Of a DNA stretch of 64,000 nt, positions 55,917-63,212 are shown piece by piece. The position numbers were made by a program, and so were the translations under genes. Numbering within the stretch: position 1 is the stretch's first letter; each line of letters opens with the position of its first letter. The stretch covers positions 540,510 through 604,509 of the forward strand of contig JACRMQ010000006.1 of NCBI GenBank assembly GCA_016214905.1, written 5' to 3'. The DNA comes from Ignavibacteriales bacterium. GTDB lineage: Bacteria; Bacteroidota; Ignavibacteria; UBA10030; SZUA-254. The notes under the pieces were generated by a model, which was not told where the DNA came from, made no database searches, and saw only the letters and a list, made by a program, of their open reading frames with translations.

Positions 55917-58352
55917 TTATCGTCTAATAATTGCTTTAAACTTATTCTCTAACTGATTGATTATGGAATTCATAATATCATCAATTTCAATCTGCGTCAA
56001 TGTATTTTCTTCAGAATAAAACTCTAATCTGAATGCATAACTCTTTTTCGAATCACCTACCTGCTTCCCGAAATATGTATCGAATAATTCAATACCTTTC
56101 AATAAGGACGATCCTGAAGACTTTATACATTCTTCAATCCTATCCATTGGAATATTAGAGTCAATGACTAACGCGATATCTCTAATTATTGAAGGATATT
56201 TCGGTAATGCTTTGTAATGCCGTTCTACATTTATTTTGTCAATCACTTTTTCGATCTCAATCTCGGCAAAAACAATTTCATTCTCGATGCCGAATTGCTT
56301 CAATAACTCTTTGTGTACATATCCAATCTTACCTATGCATTCCTTATTTATTTCAATATGAACACCTCGTTCACTTAAAGCATCGGTATTAGGATACTGA
56401 ATAAATTTAATATTGTCAAGAAATATTTTTTTGAAGAATGATTCAATTTCCCCCTTCATATCAAAAAAGTCAGTATTTTTTGATTTTTCATCCCATCTGA
56501 GCGGATTTTGGTCTCCTATGGATGAAATTAATAATTGTCTCTTTTCAGTGTATTTTGGAAGATATTCACCAACTATTGAATCATGACAGAAGTACGTCTT
56601 CCCAATTTCAAATAAACGAAGAGAACTATTTCCTTTAAAAATGTTTTCACGAATCACTTCAACCACACTCGGAAGTAAAGAAGTACGTAAGGCTTCCATA
56701 TCGCGACTTATTGGATTGGCGATTTTTACAACTCTATCAGATCCTATCTGAGCTGTCAGAATTGGCTGCATGCTATTTGTAATTATTTCTTGAAATCCTG
56801 CCCCTACGAAATAATTTCTAATGATTGGAAGAAAATCCATCGGCGGAGTTTTCTCGGATAATCTTAATTTCGATATTTCATTGATAGGAATATTGTCATA
56901 TCCGTACATGCGCGCAATTTCTTCGATAACATCAATTCCACGTTCAATATCTGGTCTGAAAGTCGGCACTAAAAATTTAATCAGATCATGATTTTTGCTT
57001 TTTGTTTTTTCAGCGACATGCTTGAAGAATATCTTTTCTAACAAATCGATAATCTCTTTATTTGAGAGAGTTATGCCAAGTAGTTGATTGACTTTCGAGA
57101 CACGGAGGGTAATTTTATTCTCTTTTATTTTTTTAGGATATACATCTATCCTTTTTCGTATGATTGTCCCGCCTGAAATTGATTTTATCATTTCTGCTGC
57201 ACGATCAACCGCCCAAAGAGTTATATTGGGATCCGCACCGCGTTCGAACCGTTGGGAAGCATCTGAGCTTAAACCAAAATATTTTGAGGTTCTTCTTATG
57301 CTCCGTGGTAAAAAATATGCGCTCTCGATAAATACGCATTTTGTGGATTGTGTGATTTCTGTGTTTTCACCACCCATTACACCTGCAACCGCGATTGGTT
57401 TCTTTCCGTCACAAATCATCAAAGTATCGGACCGAAGTTTTCTCTCTTTATGATCAAGAGTTGTAAATTGATAATTTTCCAATCCCGACTTTACGATTAT
57501 GGTTGCATTCTCTACCTTATTGAAATCAAAAGCATGAAGTGGTTGGCCGCATTCCATTAGCACGTAATTAGTTACATCTACGATATTATTAACCGGTCTA
57601 ATACCAACCGACTCTAAAATTTGCTCTAACCAAAGTGGTGATCGGGCCACTTTGACATCTTTTATCAAACGTCCTGAATATCGAGGACAGTTTTCAATAT
57701 CTTCGACGATCACTTTAGCAAAATCTGAAATTGATTTTCCCTCTTCCTCGATACTAATTTTGGGCAATTTGAAATCTATATCCTGGATTGCAGCTACTTC
57801 CCTCGCAATTCCGATATGACTGAGAGCATCAGGGCGGTTTGGTGTTACACCAATTTCGAGAATTGTGTCTTTCACACCAAGATATTCGGCTAATGGAGTA
57901 CCGAGGGGAGCAGAATCATCGAGAATAAGAATGCCATCTTTGTCTTCTCCCAATCCAAGTTCATATTCTGAACATATCATTCCGTGCGATTCAATCCCGC
58001 GAAGAGAAGCCTTAGAGATTTTAAATGGTTTACCTTCAGGATCGTGTTGATTTCGAGGAACAACCGCATCTATGAGACCAGCAGCTACAATCTGCCCTGC
58101 TGCAACATTTGGAGCCCCACAAACTATTTGCAATATTGCTGAACCGGTATCCACCTGGCATACAGTAAGTCGATCTGCTTTCGGGTGTTTTTGAACTTCT
58201 AAAACTTTAGCAACTACAAAATGATTATATTTTTCACCCTGATATTCAATGCTTTCAACTTCCAGGCCACGCATGGTAAGTAAGTGACCTAATTCTTCCG
58301 GCGATAATTTTATCGCTACATATTTTTTTAACCATTCAAGTGAAATCCGCAT
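55917..58352 (-). CDS. pheT: Phenylalanyl-tRNA synthetase beta subunit
   Basis: PheT forms the alpha2-beta2 enzyme that charges tRNA-Phe. The 811-residue protein has the N-terminal EMAP/tRNA-binding domain (HFVVAKVLEVQKHPKADRL), the B3/B4 editing region (about 200-400, ESAYFLPRSIRRTSKYFGLS), B5, the core synthetase-like domain and the C-terminal anticodon-binding FDX-ACB domain (PSIIRDIALVID). It follows pheS by 14 bp. Confidence 0.97.
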   Translation of the reverse strand: MRISLEWLKKYVAIKLSPEELGHLLTMRGLEVESIEYQGEKYNHFVVAKVLEVQKHPKADRLTVCQVDTGSAILQIVCGAPNVAAGQIVAAGLIDAVVPRNQHDPEGKPFKISKASLRGIESHGMICSEYELGLGEDKDGILILDDSAPLGTPLAEYLGVKDTILEIGVTPNRPDALSHIGIAREVAAIQDIDFKLPKISIEEEGKSISDFAKVIVEDIENCPRYSGRLIKDVKVARSPLWLEQILESVGIRPVNNIVDVTNYVLMECGQPLHAFDFNKVENATIIVKSGLENYQFTTLDHKERKLRSDTLMICDGKKPIAVAGVMGGENTEITQSTKCVFIESAYFLPRSIRRTSKYFGLSSDASQRFERGADPNITLWAVDRAAEMIKSISGGTIIRKRIDVYPKKIKENKITLRVSKVNQLLGITLSNKEIIDLLEKIFFKHVAEKTKSKNHDLIKFLVPTFRPDIERGIDVIEEIARMYGYDNIPINEISKLRLSEKTPPMDFLPIIRNYFVGAGFQEIITNSMQPILTAQIGSDRVVKIANPISRDMEALRTSLLPSVVEVIRENIFKGNSSLRLFEIGKTYFCHDSIVGEYLPKYTEKRQLLISSIGDQNPLRWDEKSKNTDFFDMKGEIESFFKKIFLDNIKFIQYPNTDALSERGVHIEINKECIGKIGYVHKELLKQFGIENEIVFAEIEIEKVIDKINVERHYKALPKYPSIIRDIALVIDSNIPMDRIEECIKSSGSSLLKGIELFDTYFGKQVGDSKKSYAFRLEFYSEENTLTQIEIDDIMNSIINQLENKFKAIIRR

Positions 58353-58366
58353 AATATATGATCTTA

Positions 58367-59377
58367 TTAAAATTGTTTTAAGAAACGGATATCATTTTGA
58401 TATAAAATTCTGATGTCATCTATTCCATACATCAGCATTGCGATTCTCTCAATACCCATACCGAAAGCATACCCGGAAATTTTTTCATCATCATATCGGA
58501 CATATTTATAAACATTCGGATCTACCATGCCGCAACCTAAAATTTCGAGCCAACCCGTTTGCTTGCACACACGACATCCTTTACCTTTGCATAAGAAACA
58601 AGTTATATCCATCTCAGCACTTGGTTCAGTGAAAGGAAAATAACTCGGTCTGAATCTAAATTTCAAGCTGCTCCCGTAAAATTGTTTCGCGAAAGTTATC
58701 AATGTTCCTTTTAATTCACTAAATGTTACACCTTCATCGACATATAATCCTTCTACCTGATGAAACAGGCAGTAACTGCGTGAACTTATCGCTTCATTCC
58801 TATAAACTCGTCCTGGAATTATTACACGTACCGGAGGTTTTTGATTCTGCATTACACGTATTTGAACCGGAGATGTGTGCGTACGTAATAGGATTTTATC
58901 GGTGATAAAAAATGTATCTTGCATATCACGCGCAGGATGGTCAGGTGGAAAATTTAACGCTTCAAAATTATGATAATCATCTTCAATCTCAGGACCATCA
59001 GCAACATCAAAACCCATTTTGTAAAATATTCTTTTGATCGCTTCGAGTGTTTGAGTGAGAGGATGAGTCGTTCCAACCCATCTTCTTCTTCCCGGCAGTG
59101 TAAAATCGATAGTTTCTTGAGGGGTTCCAATCTTCGATTCAATTTCACCTTTTTTCTTATCATAAAGTACTTGAACGTTGTTGCGAAGATCGTTTAAATG
59201 CTTTCCCATCAACGGACGATCAGTTTTATCCAATGTTTTTAATGCGTCGAACAAATCTCCCACAAGTCCGTTTCGAGCCAGATATTTTATCCTAAACGCT
59301 TCCAGCTCTTCTTGGTTTTTTACAGAATTTATTTCTACGTCAGCCGATTGTTTGATTTGTTCTATTTTCTTAATCAT
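58367..59377 (-). CDS. pheS: Phenylalanyl-tRNA synthetase alpha subunit
   Basis: PheS holds the aminoacylation site. The 336-residue protein begins MIKKIEQIKQSADV, with an N-terminal coiled coil and class II motifs: TLPGRRRWVGTTHPL, motif 2 in FHQVEGLYVDEG, and GMGIERIAMLMYG (motif 3). I start at ATG 59377; an in-frame TTG at 59386 is possible. A strong terminator ends 15 bp upstream, suggesting attenuation. Confidence 0.95.
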   Translation of the reverse strand: MIKKIEQIKQSADVEINSVKNQEELEAFRIKYLARNGLVGDLFDALKTLDKTDRPLMGKHLNDLRNNVQVLYDKKKGEIESKIGTPQETIDFTLPGRRRWVGTTHPLTQTLEAIKRIFYKMGFDVADGPEIEDDYHNFEALNFPPDHPARDMQDTFFITDKILLRTHTSPVQIRVMQNQKPPVRVIIPGRVYRNEAISSRSYCLFHQVEGLYVDEGVTFSELKGTLITFAKQFYGSSLKFRFRPSYFPFTEPSAEMDITCFLCKGKGCRVCKQTGWLEILGCGMVDPNVYKYVRYDDEKISGYAFGMGIERIAMLMYGIDDIRILYQNDIRFLKQF

Positions 59378-59392
59378 ATTTTCCAATAAAAT

Positions 59393-59460: not shown

Positions 59461-59808
59461 TTAAGCAGTTGCGAATTTTACGACTTCTGCAAATGCTTCG
59501 GGACTGCGCGATGCGAGATCAGCCAATACTTTGCGGTTAATCTCAACACCTTTTTTATTCAGTCCAGCAATTAATCTTGAATAAGTTGTTCCGTGCAAAC
59601 GGGCTCCTGCGTTGATACGGGCAATCCATAATGCGCGAAATTCTCTTTTCTTTGTTTTCCGATCACGGTAAGCATGCTGTCCAGCTTTATCGATATGGTG
59701 CTTAGCTACCGTGAGGACTTTACTTCTCGCACCCCAGTAACCTTTAGCACGCGCTAATATGCGCTTGCGCCGGCGGTGGGAGGCAACTTTATTTTGCGAA
59801 CGTGGCAT
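59461..59808 (-). CDS. rplT: 50S ribosomal protein L20
   Basis: The 115-residue protein has the L20 signature: basic N-terminus ([20 protein letters not shown]), [19 protein letters not shown] and [18 protein letters not shown]. It is third in infC-rpmI-rplT, a set autoregulated by L20 in other bacteria. The structured terminator directly follows its stop. Confidence 0.98.
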
Positions 59809-59853
59809 AGTTGCTCTTCTTCCTTTCCTCTAAGTTGTTATTGTTTGTTTTGA

Positions 59854-60045
59854 TTATTGAATCATCATTTCGATTTTCTGTTGCTCTTGCTTTGAAGCAA
59901 GTGTTGATTTTCGAAGATGACGTTTTCTTTTTGTCGATTTTGAAGTCAGTATATGACTTCGAAACGCTTTGTGACGTTTATATTTACCAGAAGCTGTTTT
60001 TTTAAAACGTTTCTTGGCGCCTGATGTTGATTTCATCTTTGGCAT
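59854..60045 (-). CDS. rpmI: 50S ribosomal protein L35
   Basis: The 63-residue basic protein ([20 protein letters not shown]) is a typical L35 and lies between infC (6 bp upstream) and rplT. Confidence 0.97.
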
Positions 60046-60051
60046 TTTATT

Positions 60052-60621
60052 CTATCCTTCCTTTTGGGTTTCAACAGGTTTTTGCTTTTTTTCAGATTTC
60101 TTTTTTGAGCTCCGTTCCGGAGCGAAGATGACTGCCATGCTGCGACCTTCTAATTTTGGAGATTGTTCAACTTTTCCAACGTCGGCTAATTTTTCTTCAA
60201 GCCGTTTAAGCAATTCTTCTCCTTGCTGGGCGTATGTGATTTCTCTACCCTTGAAGACCACCGTTGCTTTTAGTTTATGACCATCCTCTAAAAATTGTCT
60301 TCCATGACGGGCCTTAAATTCGAAGTCGTGAACATCCGTATTTGGATGGAACCGTAATTCTTTAACTTGGGTTACTTGTTGATGCTTTCTCTGGAGTTTA
60401 TCTTTCTTTGTCTGCTCATATTTGTATTTACCGAAATCCATAATCTTACAAACTGGAGGTGTGGCATTCGGTACAATCTCAATTAAATCTAAACCCCTTT
60501 GATGGGCTATCCGTAACGCTTCAGTGGGATGCATCATCCCTACCTGACCATTTTCATCAATGACACGAACTTGCGATGTTCTTATTTCTTCATTGATGCG
60601 AACACGATTTGTCTCTTTTAT
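60052..60621 (-). CDS. infC: Translation initiation factor IF-3, apparently starting at AUA
   Basis: IF-3 keeps ribosomal subunits apart and checks start codons. A frame beginning at the first ATG (60537) lacks the conserved N-terminus, yet in-frame homology continues upstream through KETNRVRINEEIRTSQVRVI and DENGQVGMMHPTEAL. There is no ATG, GTG or TTG upstream; an AGGAG site lies seven bases before ATA at 60621-60619, giving a normal 189-residue IF-3. Rare starts (AUU in E. coli) are the basis of IF-3 autoregulation, so AUA fits. The AGGAG site overlaps the thrS TAG stop, coupling the two genes. Confidence 0.93.
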   Translation of the reverse strand: MKETNRVRINEEIRTSQVRVIDENGQVGMMHPTEALRIAHQRGLDLIEIVPNATPPVCKIMDFGKYKYEQTKKDKLQRKHQQVTQVKELRFHPNTDVHDFEFKARHGRQFLEDGHKLKATVVFKGREITYAQQGEELLKRLEEKLADVGKVEQSPKLEGRSMAVIFAPERSSKKKSEKKQKPVETQKEG

Positions 60622-60631
60622 GGCAGTACTC

Positions 60632-62560
60632 CTAAATTGTTAATGATTTTAATTTGATTTCTTCTAAAATTTTATCTACAAATTTATCGAGAGGCATTAC
60701 ACCTATGTCACCTTTTTTATGTTGTCGTACCGATACCGCATTCGAATTACATTCTTTATCGCCCACCACCAACATGTACGATGCCTTCTTCATTTCCCAC
60801 TCACGGATTTTATAATTTACTTTTTCGTTTCGATCGTCAAGCTCGACCCGGACATCTGCGTTTTTTAATGCTTGATACACTTTACGTGCATAATCTAAGT
60901 GAGAATCGGTAATCGGCAGTACGATGGCTTGCTGCGGTGATAACCAAGTTGGGAATGATCCAGAAAAATGCTCGGTAATAATTCCCATAAATCTTTCGAA
61001 TGATCCGAAAATTGCACGATGAATTGCGACAGGTCTTTTACGGGAACCATCTTCAGCAACATATTCCAATTCAAAACGTTCAGGCAGCATTATAAAATCT
61101 AACTGGATTGTTGCAATTTGCCAATCCCTTCCCAACGCATCTTGGATTTGGACATCGATCTTGGGTCCGTAAAAAGCGCCATCCTTAGGTTTTAAAGTAT
61201 ATTTTATTTTGTTATGTTCAAGGGCTTTCATCAAACCTGATTCAGCTTCTTCCCAAAGTTTCGGATCTCCCATTGCACCTTCGGGTTTAGTTGAAAGGTT
61301 ATAAACTGGTTTCAAACCAAAAATTGAATAAAATCGTTCGACTAAAATTATCAATGAATTTATTTCATCCAAAATCTGATCGGGTCGGCAATAGATATGC
61401 GCATCATCCATAGTGATTTGCCGTACCCTGAACATTCCACCAAGCGCACCTGAAATTTCGTTCCTGTGTAATCTTCCGATCTCGGAATATCTCAGAGGAA
61501 GATCTTTATAGCTTCTCATCCGATGACGATAAACGTATGTGCTTTCGGGACAATTCATCGGTTTCAAACTGAATGTCGCATCATCGTGATCGAAATAGAA
61601 CATGTTTTCTTTATAATGCGCCCAATGTCCTGATTGTTCCCATAATTCTTTCTTAACTAAAATTGGTGTCGATATTTCCTGATACCCTGCACCATCGAGT
61701 TCGTATCTCAGAAATTTTTCGAGTTCGCGGAAAACAATCATTCCATTCGGAAGCCAGAATGGAGCACCGGGAGCTATATCGTGAAAAACGAATAGGTCGA
61801 GTTCTTTCCCTAATTTTCTATGATCTCTCCGCTTCGCTTCTTCGATGCGGAAGAGATATTCATCTAATTCTTTTTGAGTAGGAAATGAAATGCCGTAAAT
61901 TCTCTGAAGCATTTTATTTTTTTCGTTCCCGCGCCAATAAGCACCTGCAACACTCAGAAGCTTTATCGCTTTCAATTTTCCCATCGAAGGTAAATGAGGA
62001 CCTGCGCACAGATCGATGAATTTCCCTGAGTGGTAAAATGTGATGATTTGTCCTTTTAACTCTTCGAGAAGCTCAAGCTTATATGGATCATCTTTTTCTT
62101 TAAAATATGCGACGGCATCTTCCCACTTTTTTTCTTCTCTAACAATCTTGGAATCTACCTTCGATAGTTCCAACATCTTTTGTTCAATCTTCGAGAGATC
62201 ATCTGGGGATAAAGTGTGACCGCCTAAATCGATGTCGTAATAAAATCCCGCATCGATCGATGGTCCAACGCCAAACTTTGCGCCGGGAAAGATTGCTTCA
62301 ACTGCTTCCGCCATCAGATGCGCGGTACTGTGCCAATAGGTATCTTTTCCGCCTATATCATTCCATTTTAAAATTCTCACCTGAGAATCAGCGTTTATCG
62401 CCCTGACAAGATCCCAAACTTCCCCGTTCACTTCAATCGCAAGGGCATCACGAAGTAATCCGTTGCTGATACTCTTGGCAATATCTAATCCGGAGATACC
62501 TTTTGAGTATTCCCTAGTATTACCGTCAGGAAATTTTATTGTAATAGTTGTCATCATCAT
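60632..62560 (-). CDS. thrS: Threonyl-tRNA synthetase
   Basis: ThrS charges tRNA-Thr. The 642-residue protein has the TGS domain (TITIKFPDGNTREYSKGI), the editing domain with HSTAHLMAEAVE and the SAD region, class II core motifs (RYSEIGRLHRNE, CPESTYVYR zinc site, FGSFERFMGIITEH) and the anticodon-binding domain. It starts with three consecutive ATGs and no visible ribosome site; a terminator's U-run ends six bases upstream. Confidence 0.97.
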   Translation of the reverse strand: MMMTTITIKFPDGNTREYSKGISGLDIAKSISNGLLRDALAIEVNGEVWDLVRAINADSQVRILKWNDIGGKDTYWHSTAHLMAEAVEAIFPGAKFGVGPSIDAGFYYDIDLGGHTLSPDDLSKIEQKMLELSKVDSKIVREEKKWEDAVAYFKEKDDPYKLELLEELKGQIITFYHSGKFIDLCAGPHLPSMGKLKAIKLLSVAGAYWRGNEKNKMLQRIYGISFPTQKELDEYLFRIEEAKRRDHRKLGKELDLFVFHDIAPGAPFWLPNGMIVFRELEKFLRYELDGAGYQEISTPILVKKELWEQSGHWAHYKENMFYFDHDDATFSLKPMNCPESTYVYRHRMRSYKDLPLRYSEIGRLHRNEISGALGGMFRVRQITMDDAHIYCRPDQILDEINSLIILVERFYSIFGLKPVYNLSTKPEGAMGDPKLWEEAESGLMKALEHNKIKYTLKPKDGAFYGPKIDVQIQDALGRDWQIATIQLDFIMLPERFELEYVAEDGSRKRPVAIHRAIFGSFERFMGIITEHFSGSFPTWLSPQQAIVLPITDSHLDYARKVYQALKNADVRVELDDRNEKVNYKIREWEMKKASYMLVVGDKECNSNAVSVRQHKKGDIGVMPLDKFVDKILEEIKLKSLTI

Positions 62561-62566
62561 TTAAAC

Positions 62567-62591
62567 AAAAAAATCGGATAAAATCCGATTT
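62567..62591 (-). terminator. Terminator or attenuator abutting the thrS start
   Basis: AAATCGGAT (62571-62579) pairs with ATCCGATTT (62583-62591) around a 3-nt loop, followed on the minus strand by seven U residues (62573-62567, counting those shared with the arm). The run ends six bases before the first thrS ATG, leaving no room for a promoter in between. Confidence 0.85.
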
Positions 62592-62645
62592 CAGAAAATA
62601 AATTCAATTTTATAAAATATCTGTTCTGAAATTTTCATTTCTCCT
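62588..62645 (-). promoter_or_regulatory. Possible thrS leader: short ORF and stem that competes with the terminator
   Basis: ATG (62638-62636) opens a 15-codon frame MKISEQIFYKIEFIF ending at TGA (62593-62591). AGGAG (62645-62641) is upstream but only two bases from the ATG. ATTTCAGAA (62632-62624) pairs perfectly with TTCTGAAAT (62596-62588), and this second arm overlaps the terminator arm by four bases. The codons are Ile/Phe-rich with no Thr. The leader role is inferred. Confidence 0.4.
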
Positions 62646-62652
62646 ATTAATG

Positions 62653-62726
<74 letters not shown>

Positions 62727-62743
62727 AAAATATTTTTTCCGAG

Positions 62744-62829
62744 TGCCGGGGATCGGAATCGAACCGACACTCCCCTTGCGGAGAACAGGATTTTAAGTCC
62801 TGTGCGTCTACCAGTTTCGCCACCCCGGC
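62744..62829 (-). tRNA. tRNA-Leu (TAA)
   Basis: An 86-nt class II tRNA: acceptor GCCGGGG/CCCCGGC, anticodon loop CTTAAAA reading TAA, long variable arm (TTCTCCGCAAGGGGA) and T loop GGTTCGATTCC. CCA is not encoded. Confidence 0.96.
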
Positions 62830-62850
62830 AATCTTTGTTCTTTGTCACCT

Positions 62851-62895
62851 GTTATTGGATGTCCTTTAAAAAAAAAAAAACACTTTACCAATAAC
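62851..62895. repeat. Inverted repeat around an A13 tract between tRNA-Leu and tRNA-Cys
   Basis: GTTATTGG (62851-62858) and CCAATAAC (62888-62895) flank a run of 13 A residues (62868-62880; U on the tRNA transcript). It may be a processing signal or a weak terminator. Confidence 0.4.
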
Positions 62896-62910
62896 TAATA
62901 ATTAATCAAG

Positions 62911-62982
62911 AGGCGCCGGGCGGATTCGGACCGCCGCATAAAGGTTTTGCAGACCTCTCCCTTACCACTTGGGTACGGCGCC
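62911..62982 (-). tRNA. tRNA-Cys (GCA)
   Basis: A 72-nt cloverleaf: acceptor GGCGCCG/CGGCGCC with the U73 discriminator typical of tRNA-Cys, anticodon loop CTGCAAA reading GCA, and T loop GGTCCGAATCC. Confidence 0.96.
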
Positions 62983-63002
62983 ATTTTTATTTTTAAAAAT
63001 AA

Positions 63003-63036
63003 GCCCCGCCGCCTGATGTAATGGGAGCAGCAGGGC
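63003..63036 (-). terminator. Hairpin between tRNA-Gly and tRNA-Cys
   Basis: On the minus strand GCCCTGCTGCT (63036-63026) pairs with GGCGGCGGGGC (63013-63003), using G-U pairs, followed by TTATTTTT. It resembles an intrinsic terminator inside the tRNA cluster and may give partial termination after tRNA-Gly. Confidence 0.6.
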
Positions 63037-63096
63037 GATTCTCTGTAACCATGATACGCTATCAATACTTAATAATCGCGTAATCAGATAAAATTG

Positions 63097-63169
63097 AGCG
63101 GGAAACGGGATTCGGACCCGCGACATTCACCTTGGCAAGGTGACGCTCTACCAACTGAGCTATTCCCGC
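63097..63169 (-). tRNA. tRNA-Gly (GCC)
   Basis: A 73-nt cloverleaf: acceptor GCGGGAA/TTCCCGC, D arm AGCTCAGTTGGTAGAGC, anticodon loop TTGCCAA reading GCC, T loop GGTCCGAATCC and U73. It is the first tRNA after the promoter. Confidence 0.96.
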
Positions 63170-63181
63170 AATTAATGCTGA

Positions 63182-63212
63182 ATAATATACTGAAATTTTC
63201 ATGCACACGCAA
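63182..63212 (-). promoter_or_regulatory. Promoter of the tRNA cluster
   Basis: Minus-strand TTG (63212-63210), 20 bp, TATATTAT (63189-63182), 13 bp before the tRNA-Gly 5' end. Confidence 0.65.

Follow-up and report, generated by a model that had tools for sequence, protein, structure and literature searches.

The thrS operon of this Ignavibacteriales bacterium is preceded by a short terminator-like hairpin, which we tentatively read as an attenuator-type leader terminator of the rimP-leader type, that is, one that lacks a sensor of its own and would be the target of a termination factor or of an RNA-binding one. Its close rival is the reading as a passive, leaky terminator. What the two share, namely that thrS is supplied by read-through, either under an attenuator or under a passive throttle, appears quite probable from the arrangement of the sequence. 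The predicted terminator is short and recurs across most of the order and in parts of the class; as a prediction it is lineage-wide and commoner than the preliminary description of this DNA said.

The thrS locus and its leader hairpin

The minus strand of the window (the whole 64,000-nt stretch that was analysed) carries, in order, tRNA-Gly(gcc), tRNA-Cys, tRNA-Leu(taa), tRNA-Val(gac), a 91-nt leader, thrS, infC, rpmI, rplT, pheS and pheT. The tRNA-Leu(taa), tRNA-Cys(gca) and tRNA-Gly(gcc) genes (62743..63169) are co-directional with tRNA-Val(gac) (62652..62726), the final member of this upstream cluster. The thrS gene (60632..62560) encodes a protein with TGS, SAD, class II core and anticodon-binding domains (Pfam); its third ATG (62554) is presumably the best fit to the usual ThrRS N-terminus. 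It is followed by infC (60052..60621, an ORF frame), by rpmI (60045-59854) and rplT (59808-59461) from the ORF list (together 59461..60045) and, further along the thrS strand, by pheS (59386-58367) and pheT (58352-55917; together 55917..59386), all on the minus strand. These five genes are named after the proteins that they appear to encode. The apparent start of infC is the rare codon ATA at 60621, with AGGAG 7 nt 5′ of it (60619-60633, minus strand), and the first in-frame ATG lies 28 codons on; E. coli infC likewise uses a rare start codon.

A MAG named Chlorobiaceae bacterium SW.3.66 has a thrS with 93% identity to this one; the next relatives are filed under the names Bacteroidota, Bacteroidetes, Ignavibacteria or Kryptonia. 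A small CYTH-domain protein (PF01928; 63275-63796) is also encoded on the minus strand, upstream of the tRNA cluster.

The hairpin AAATCGGAT-TTT-ATCCGA followed by seven Ts (62567..62591, minus strand) was recognised by the terminator scan and by its recurrence at thrS. It has 10 pairs including the A/U extension and is scored as terminator-like; as in intrinsic terminators, a G+C-containing hairpin stands directly before a U-run. The preliminary description had placed a terminator six bases before the thrS ATG, and it is indeed present there, with GTTTAA filling the 6-nt gap to the ATG at 62560. The fold of the whole 98-nt leader is unexceptional (z -1.25; 22 of 200 shuffles are equally good), and a scan of 9 kb returned 10 terminator-like sites versus 6.3 in shuffles. 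The sole Rfam family over cut-off across the window is tRNA. Weak matches to the leader (E up to 10) belong to snoRNA, intron and miRNA families, lie far under cut-off and were dismissed as chance.

Recurrence of the hairpin and of its stem

Regions upstream of thrS were collected from 145 genomes (85 of the window's order, 40 of the class and 20 of the phylum), 144 of which were counted. Locus L085, whose match begins within the gene, was excluded from all counts, and the counts also omit L088-L092, L277, L278 and L279-L282. The order comprises 98 genomes, and the 5′ end of thrS was usable in 84 of them; among the 14 left are G010, G012, G026, G036 and G067. The labels f1 to f43 denote families of the genome collection searched. 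A rule-based finder covering up to 130 nt upstream of thrS, with a score threshold of our own choice, detected a terminator at 88 of the 144 loci; dinucleotide shuffles predict 1.0, and the antisense strand gave 6. The window's order contributes 67 of 84 (f6 29/29, f4 17/18, f5 13/17, f1 7/13, f3 1/2, f2 0/5), other families of the class 17 of 40, and the rest of the phylum 4 of 20.

Several loci missed by the finder carry a weaker hairpin under the threshold (G011, G013, G020, G030 and three f14 genomes) or a displaced or odd one (113 nt away in G047; with a long inner part in G016). By eye, the hairpin is present in 8 of 13 records of a Kryptonia/Kryptoniota/Bacteroidetes block (L102-L113, L160), namely L105-L110, L113 and L160, and in none of the remaining five; at least some of these records are the same genomes as f12. 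It is also present in a Melioribacter MAG (L135). Elsewhere tRNA-Val(gac) is kept and the hairpin is absent: in G004, G008 and G014 of f1, in 3/5 f2, 3/4 f16, 3/4 f10 and 1/4 f12 genomes, and in f13 and f24. The existence of such lineages indicates that the hairpin is dispensable. In a Zixibacteriota MAG (L152), in L165 and in L259 (f24), tRNA-Val(gac) lies directly 5′ of thrS and the hairpin is absent, so the tRNA-Val/thrS neighbourhood may predate the terminator. At L010 (G014) the tRNA cluster is reordered to Gly-Leu-Val-Cys, with tRNA-Cys ending 8 nt 5′ of the thrS match and no hairpin.

A hairpin of the form CGG..CCG followed by a T run occurs at 83 of the 144 loci, with an almost invariant core and loops that vary in length and letters. 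Alignment A1 contains 73 of the 75 distinct hairpins (L007 and L223 were omitted); its members were picked by the pattern CGG..CCG..TTTT, so that the invariant core and the T run are partly due to selection. Pairing in A1 amounts to 96.6%, with little sign of covariation: two pairs show two-sided changes (6 cells), a number of pairs that 52 of 500 shuffles also reach; sliding the alignment by one column yields 12 two-sided cells versus 6 in place. Family f5 has an unrelated GTCCC/GGGAC-type stem 5′ of thrS in 8 of its 17 loci, six of them over the finder threshold (G023, G028, G032, G051, G080, G088). Because f5 swaps in this unrelated stem, it is a terminator, and not one particular sequence, that is conserved.

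The 98 genomes were searched with a model and with a pattern. Model R1, too short for genome-wide E-values, passed E 0.05 in only 10 of 98 genomes, always at thrS. The pattern TCGGA-N1..14-TCCGATTTT lies within 150 nt upstream of thrS in the sense orientation at 53 of 84 loci of the order and in antisense at 8; over both strands of the 98 genomes it has 166 matches, and the reversed control pattern has 3. About 105 matches in the order are not at thrS. Among 14 such regions inspected, nine fall inside an ORF and five at a gdhA junction. In the 3.3-Mb genome of the window itself, the strict terminator pattern has two copies, the second being antisense within an ORF, and a looser pattern has four. 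With such low numbers, and with non-thrS matches mainly within ORFs, the idea of a general terminator of these genomes was mostly rejected.

The gdhA junction is the exception that keeps the stem from being purely thrS-specific. G000 and four f6 genomes (G068, G075, G076, G079) carry the same stem in the gap that separates gdhA from a response-regulator-like gene. This hairpin, TCGGAGTGG..CACTCCGATTTT, lies at G000:C7:771540-771567 (L267:1541-1568) and at L263-L266, with a variant in L266. The response-regulator-like gene begins 29-34 nt downstream of it in these five f1/f6 genomes; its assignment comes from a weak match of 28.8 bits versus a Pfam cut-off of 30.2, with Pfam run on the G000 pair only.

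Predicted promoters, probable read-through and the neighbouring tRNA genes

The gene tRNA-Val(gac) lies closely 5′ of thrS in f1, f2, f5, f6, f7, f9, f10, f12-f14, f16 and others. The same four tRNAs occur in the same order in 9 of 13 f1, 5 of 5 f2 and 8 of 17 f5 loci; several others are cut by contig ends. Family f4 separates the hairpin from this neighbour. All 18 of its genomes keep the hairpin, and tRNA-Val is absent within 400 nt in 13 of the 17 genomes with at least 538 nt of upstream sequence (the eighteenth, G096, offers only 89 nt). In G053, G056, G059 and G094 of f4, tRNA-Val lies 149-291 nt upstream, and a promoter-like TTGCAT-N17-TAnnTT is found between it and the hairpin. Because the hairpin is kept by all f4 genomes, mostly with no tRNA-Val nearby, its genomic association, as far as the compared sequences tell, is with thrS rather than with tRNA-Val.

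Promoters were predicted by matching the Bacteroidota -7 consensus TAnnTTTG (PMC7366714). The f4 scan sought TTG, 17-22 nt and TAnnTTTG. In 10 of 17 f4 genomes, 25-28 nt separate the end of the best -7 element from the CGG downstream of it, and in two genomes this distance is 6 nt; at the strict score, consensus matches are present in 8 of 17 versus 2.0 expected. In G107 (f16), a predicted promoter TTG-N20-TATTTTAA is followed by the hairpin and then by thrS. Its f16 relatives L211, L212 and L220 have a promoter-like TTG-N20-TAnnTTTG between tRNA-Val and thrS, and the hairpin is absent.

Where the tRNA cluster precedes thrS, candidate promoters lie before the tRNAs. In the window, TTG-N20-TATATTAT (63182..63212, minus strand), a consensus match 5′ of tRNA-Gly, is the likely start of the tRNA-thrS transcription unit. 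A TTG-N20-TATATT ends 13-14 nt 5′ of tRNA-Gly in 12 of 13 inspected f1/f2 genomes (G004 is the exception), this being a raw count without shuffle expectation. Before tRNA-Val, 25 of the 26 best f6 candidates have a spacer of 20 nt; the strict score is reached by 5 of 26 versus 2.6 expected, and also by 6 of 6 in f7 (0.46 expected) and 3 of 13 in f5 (0.34 expected). The minus-strand sequence ATGAAAATTTCAG occurs as an exact 13-nt direct repeat, once in the thrS leader (62626-62638) and once within the spacer of the promoter predicted for the tRNA operon (63190-63202); in G001, leader and spacer have 12 nt in common.

At 74 hairpin-bearing loci of the order, consensus matching found no full promoter (TTG, 19-21 nt and TAnnTT) whose -7 element falls between the hairpin and thrS. 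Since predicted promoters lie upstream and no full one follows the hairpin, the operon is probably expressed by read-through. The preliminary description had concluded that thrS-infC-rpmI-rplT can only be expressed in this way, and we regard this as probable.

The same data bear on a simpler reading, in which the hairpin is a plain 3′ terminator of the tRNA operon and thrS has an undetected promoter, either downstream of the hairpin or inside the tRNA cluster. A bare TAnnTT does follow the hairpin at 13 of the 74 order loci, and among the four of 20 distant phylum members with a terminator, a promoter-like sequence follows in three (f28, f31, f37), as judged by eye. However, at the 74 loci the thrS match begins a median of 15 nt (range 4-113) after the first four Ts, full promoters after the hairpin are lacking throughout, and the hairpin persists without a nearby tRNA-Val. 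We therefore regard a plain tRNA terminator as decidedly improbable.

A passive throttle, a close rival of the attenuator reading, is harder to set aside. In it, a leaky terminator ends most tRNA transcripts, and a constant fraction passing it sets the levels of ThrRS and IF3, with nothing being sensed. It would suit leaders that show no conserved sensor domain, leader peptide or antiterminator, lineages that do without the hairpin, and the spacing in f2, f5, f7, f9 and f14, where tRNA-Val and the start of the hairpin are often just 6-20 nt apart. It explains less well why the hairpin is retained in f4 and G107, downstream of a predicted thrS promoter that could simply have been weaker to the same effect, and why the stem core is very uniform and the loops vary, bearing in mind that this alignment was picked by its CGG..CCG pattern. 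On balance, passive throttling is a real possibility, which we nevertheless would not put first.

In the attenuator reading, RNA polymerase would start upstream of the tRNA cluster, which in the window means at TTG-N20-TATATTAT in front of tRNA-Gly; in many f4 genomes it would start at the predicted promoter 25-28 nt before the hairpin. It would then meet the short conserved terminator just 5′ of thrS, and only polymerases that read through would yield the thrS-infC-rpmI-rplT mRNA. The hairpin would have to terminate transcription in the cell, and read-through would thereby set ThrRS and IF3 levels. The fraction reading through might be tuned by a factor, NusA-like or ThrRS itself, whose target is the hairpin or the polymerase; this is the least certain step of the scheme. 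As no sensor domain common to the hairpin-bearing leaders was found, regulation, as opposed to constant throttling, is a step that we infer. A more specific version, in which an RNA-binding protein (ThrRS or NusA) reads the AUCGGA/UCCGAU stem and decides on read-through into thrS-infC-rpmI-rplT, seems rather unlikely.

Proposed leader control compared with known systems

The preliminary description proposed a switch, in which ribosomes translating a 15-codon frame, or an antiterminator, would choose between an upstream stem and the terminator. Its parts exist. ATTTCAGAA (62632-62624) and TTCTGAAAT (62596-62588), evident in the sequence and in the consensus fold, are fully complementary, and the stem that they form (62588..62632, minus strand) shares AAAT (62591-62588) with the terminator. 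The frame MKISEQIFYKIEFIF, from ATG 62638 to TGA 62591 on the minus strand, has AGGAG nearby and ends at the terminator. The roles assigned to these parts did not withstand comparison. Although the stems overlap, they compete for four A/U-tract bases only and coexist in the best folds: the window fold holds both (-14.2 kcal/mol), and the RNAalifold consensus of six f1 genomes sets the upstream stem beside the terminator, not against it. The terminator 5′ arm pairs upstream at p<=0.05 in 5 of 66 order leaders, which is about chance; in the other 61 the upstream pairing is not better than 95% of shuffles. The short distances between tRNA and hairpin in f2, f5, f7, f9 and f14 leave little room for a switch.

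An alignment of relatives, which the preliminary description had suggested for both stems, divides them: the terminator recurs at the 88 loci given above, and six f1 genomes share the upstream stem, TTTCAG..CTGAAA, some changes affecting one side of it only. By eye, it was not seen in the other hairpin-bearing f1 genomes G003, G007 and G013. As to the frame, its AGGAG (62645-62641) ends 2 nt before the ATG, nearer than a usual Shine-Dalgarno sequence. In G000 it codes for 15 aa; in G001 it is longer (28 aa) and overlaps thrS. None of seven other f1 leaders has a comparable frame. Among frames of 8-60 codons in the 84 order leaders, the maximum is 3 Thr in 8 codons, reached at six loci, and five of those frames read through tRNA-Val. 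Judged by this pattern, the 15-codon frame is probably not a functional leader peptide. The coexisting stems, the chance level of upstream pairing, the unconserved frame and the missing Thr run led us to reject the antiterminator and the leader peptide together, and the switch as a whole now seems very remote. In the leader-peptide attenuators of the thr, phe and his operons, too, a terminator stands just before the structural gene; unlike them, the thrS leaders here have neither a conserved frame nor a run of Thr codons.

In Firmicutes, a T-box leader controls thrS through a leader terminator. No T-box was matched by Rfam in the window or in the leader, in agreement with the earlier remark that T-boxes are not expected in this group; a 2008 survey likewise reports no T-boxes in 7 Bacteroidetes/Chlorobi genomes (PMC2494555). 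With a terminator in the thrS leader and no T-box, the suggestion of a different mode of aminoacyl-tRNA synthetase control may be right.

A different precedent is the translational operator of E. coli thrS, where ThrRS binds the leader and blocks ribosome loading. If the present hairpin worked in this manner, termination would be incidental. The resemblance lies in a leader hairpin close to the thrS start, a uniform stem and a product that binds RNA, and autoregulation by E. coli ThrRS is mentioned in PMC2965389, where it is called transcriptional. Here, in contrast to that operator, a U-run follows the hairpin as in terminators; no common loop motif is discernible by eye among the 73 aligned hairpins, and f5 retains a terminator with an unrelated stem. 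Mimicry of tRNA-Thr was considered and rejected: the stem recalls a generic GCCGAU/AUCGGC acceptor, but the hairpin is unlike the acceptors of the three tRNA-Thr genes detected in the same genome (GCTGAAG, GCTTGCG, GCTGGCG). A translational operator is, in our judgement, highly improbable.

The nearest analogue of the leader terminator is the rimP-leader (RF01770), which likewise consists of a conserved terminator alone, its stem core fixed, with no larger conserved element around it. It lies 4-130 nt before the first gene of rimP-nusA-infB and has a possible antiterminator only in several Gammaproteobacteria; its describers, Naville and Gautheret (2010), proposed a stem-reading protein, with NusA as the best candidate (PMC2965389). 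The operons and stems differ, being thrS-infC-rpmI-rplT and CGGAg/cUCCG here and rimP-nusA-infB and GGGc/gCCC there. RF01770 had no match over cut-off in 40 relatives (4 weak matches) and none in the window; with another gene and another stem, membership in this family was rejected. A comparable layout is the E. coli metY-rimP-nusA-infB unit, where a tRNA gene and the terminators t1/t2 precede a translation-factor operon that can be reached from promoters 5′ of the tRNA (PMC6511841). In that unit the 3′ side of metY holds a further promoter, P2, whereas no full promoter was found after the hairpin here; it joins IF2 with metY, and the present locus joins IF3 with tRNA-Val.

A search of open-access literature returned no title or abstract start concerning a thrS leader terminator in this group. 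Among the papers returned, PMC12452182 has five mentions of thrS and 19 of terminators.

The genes thrS-infC-rpmI-rplT encode a tRNA synthetase, the initiation factor IF3 and two ribosomal proteins. A conserved element beside tRNA-Val or a predicted promoter is well suited to term-seq and reporter assays. On the attenuator reading, this would be a second core translation operon preceded by a terminator of the rimP-leader type, which is bare and conserved and shows no sensor. Should a protein indeed read the stem, the copy at the gdhA junction would make a small attenuator regulon linking amino-acid charging with glutamate metabolism, and the control of this aminoacyl-tRNA synthetase would be neither a T-box, nor a leader peptide, nor a translational operator.
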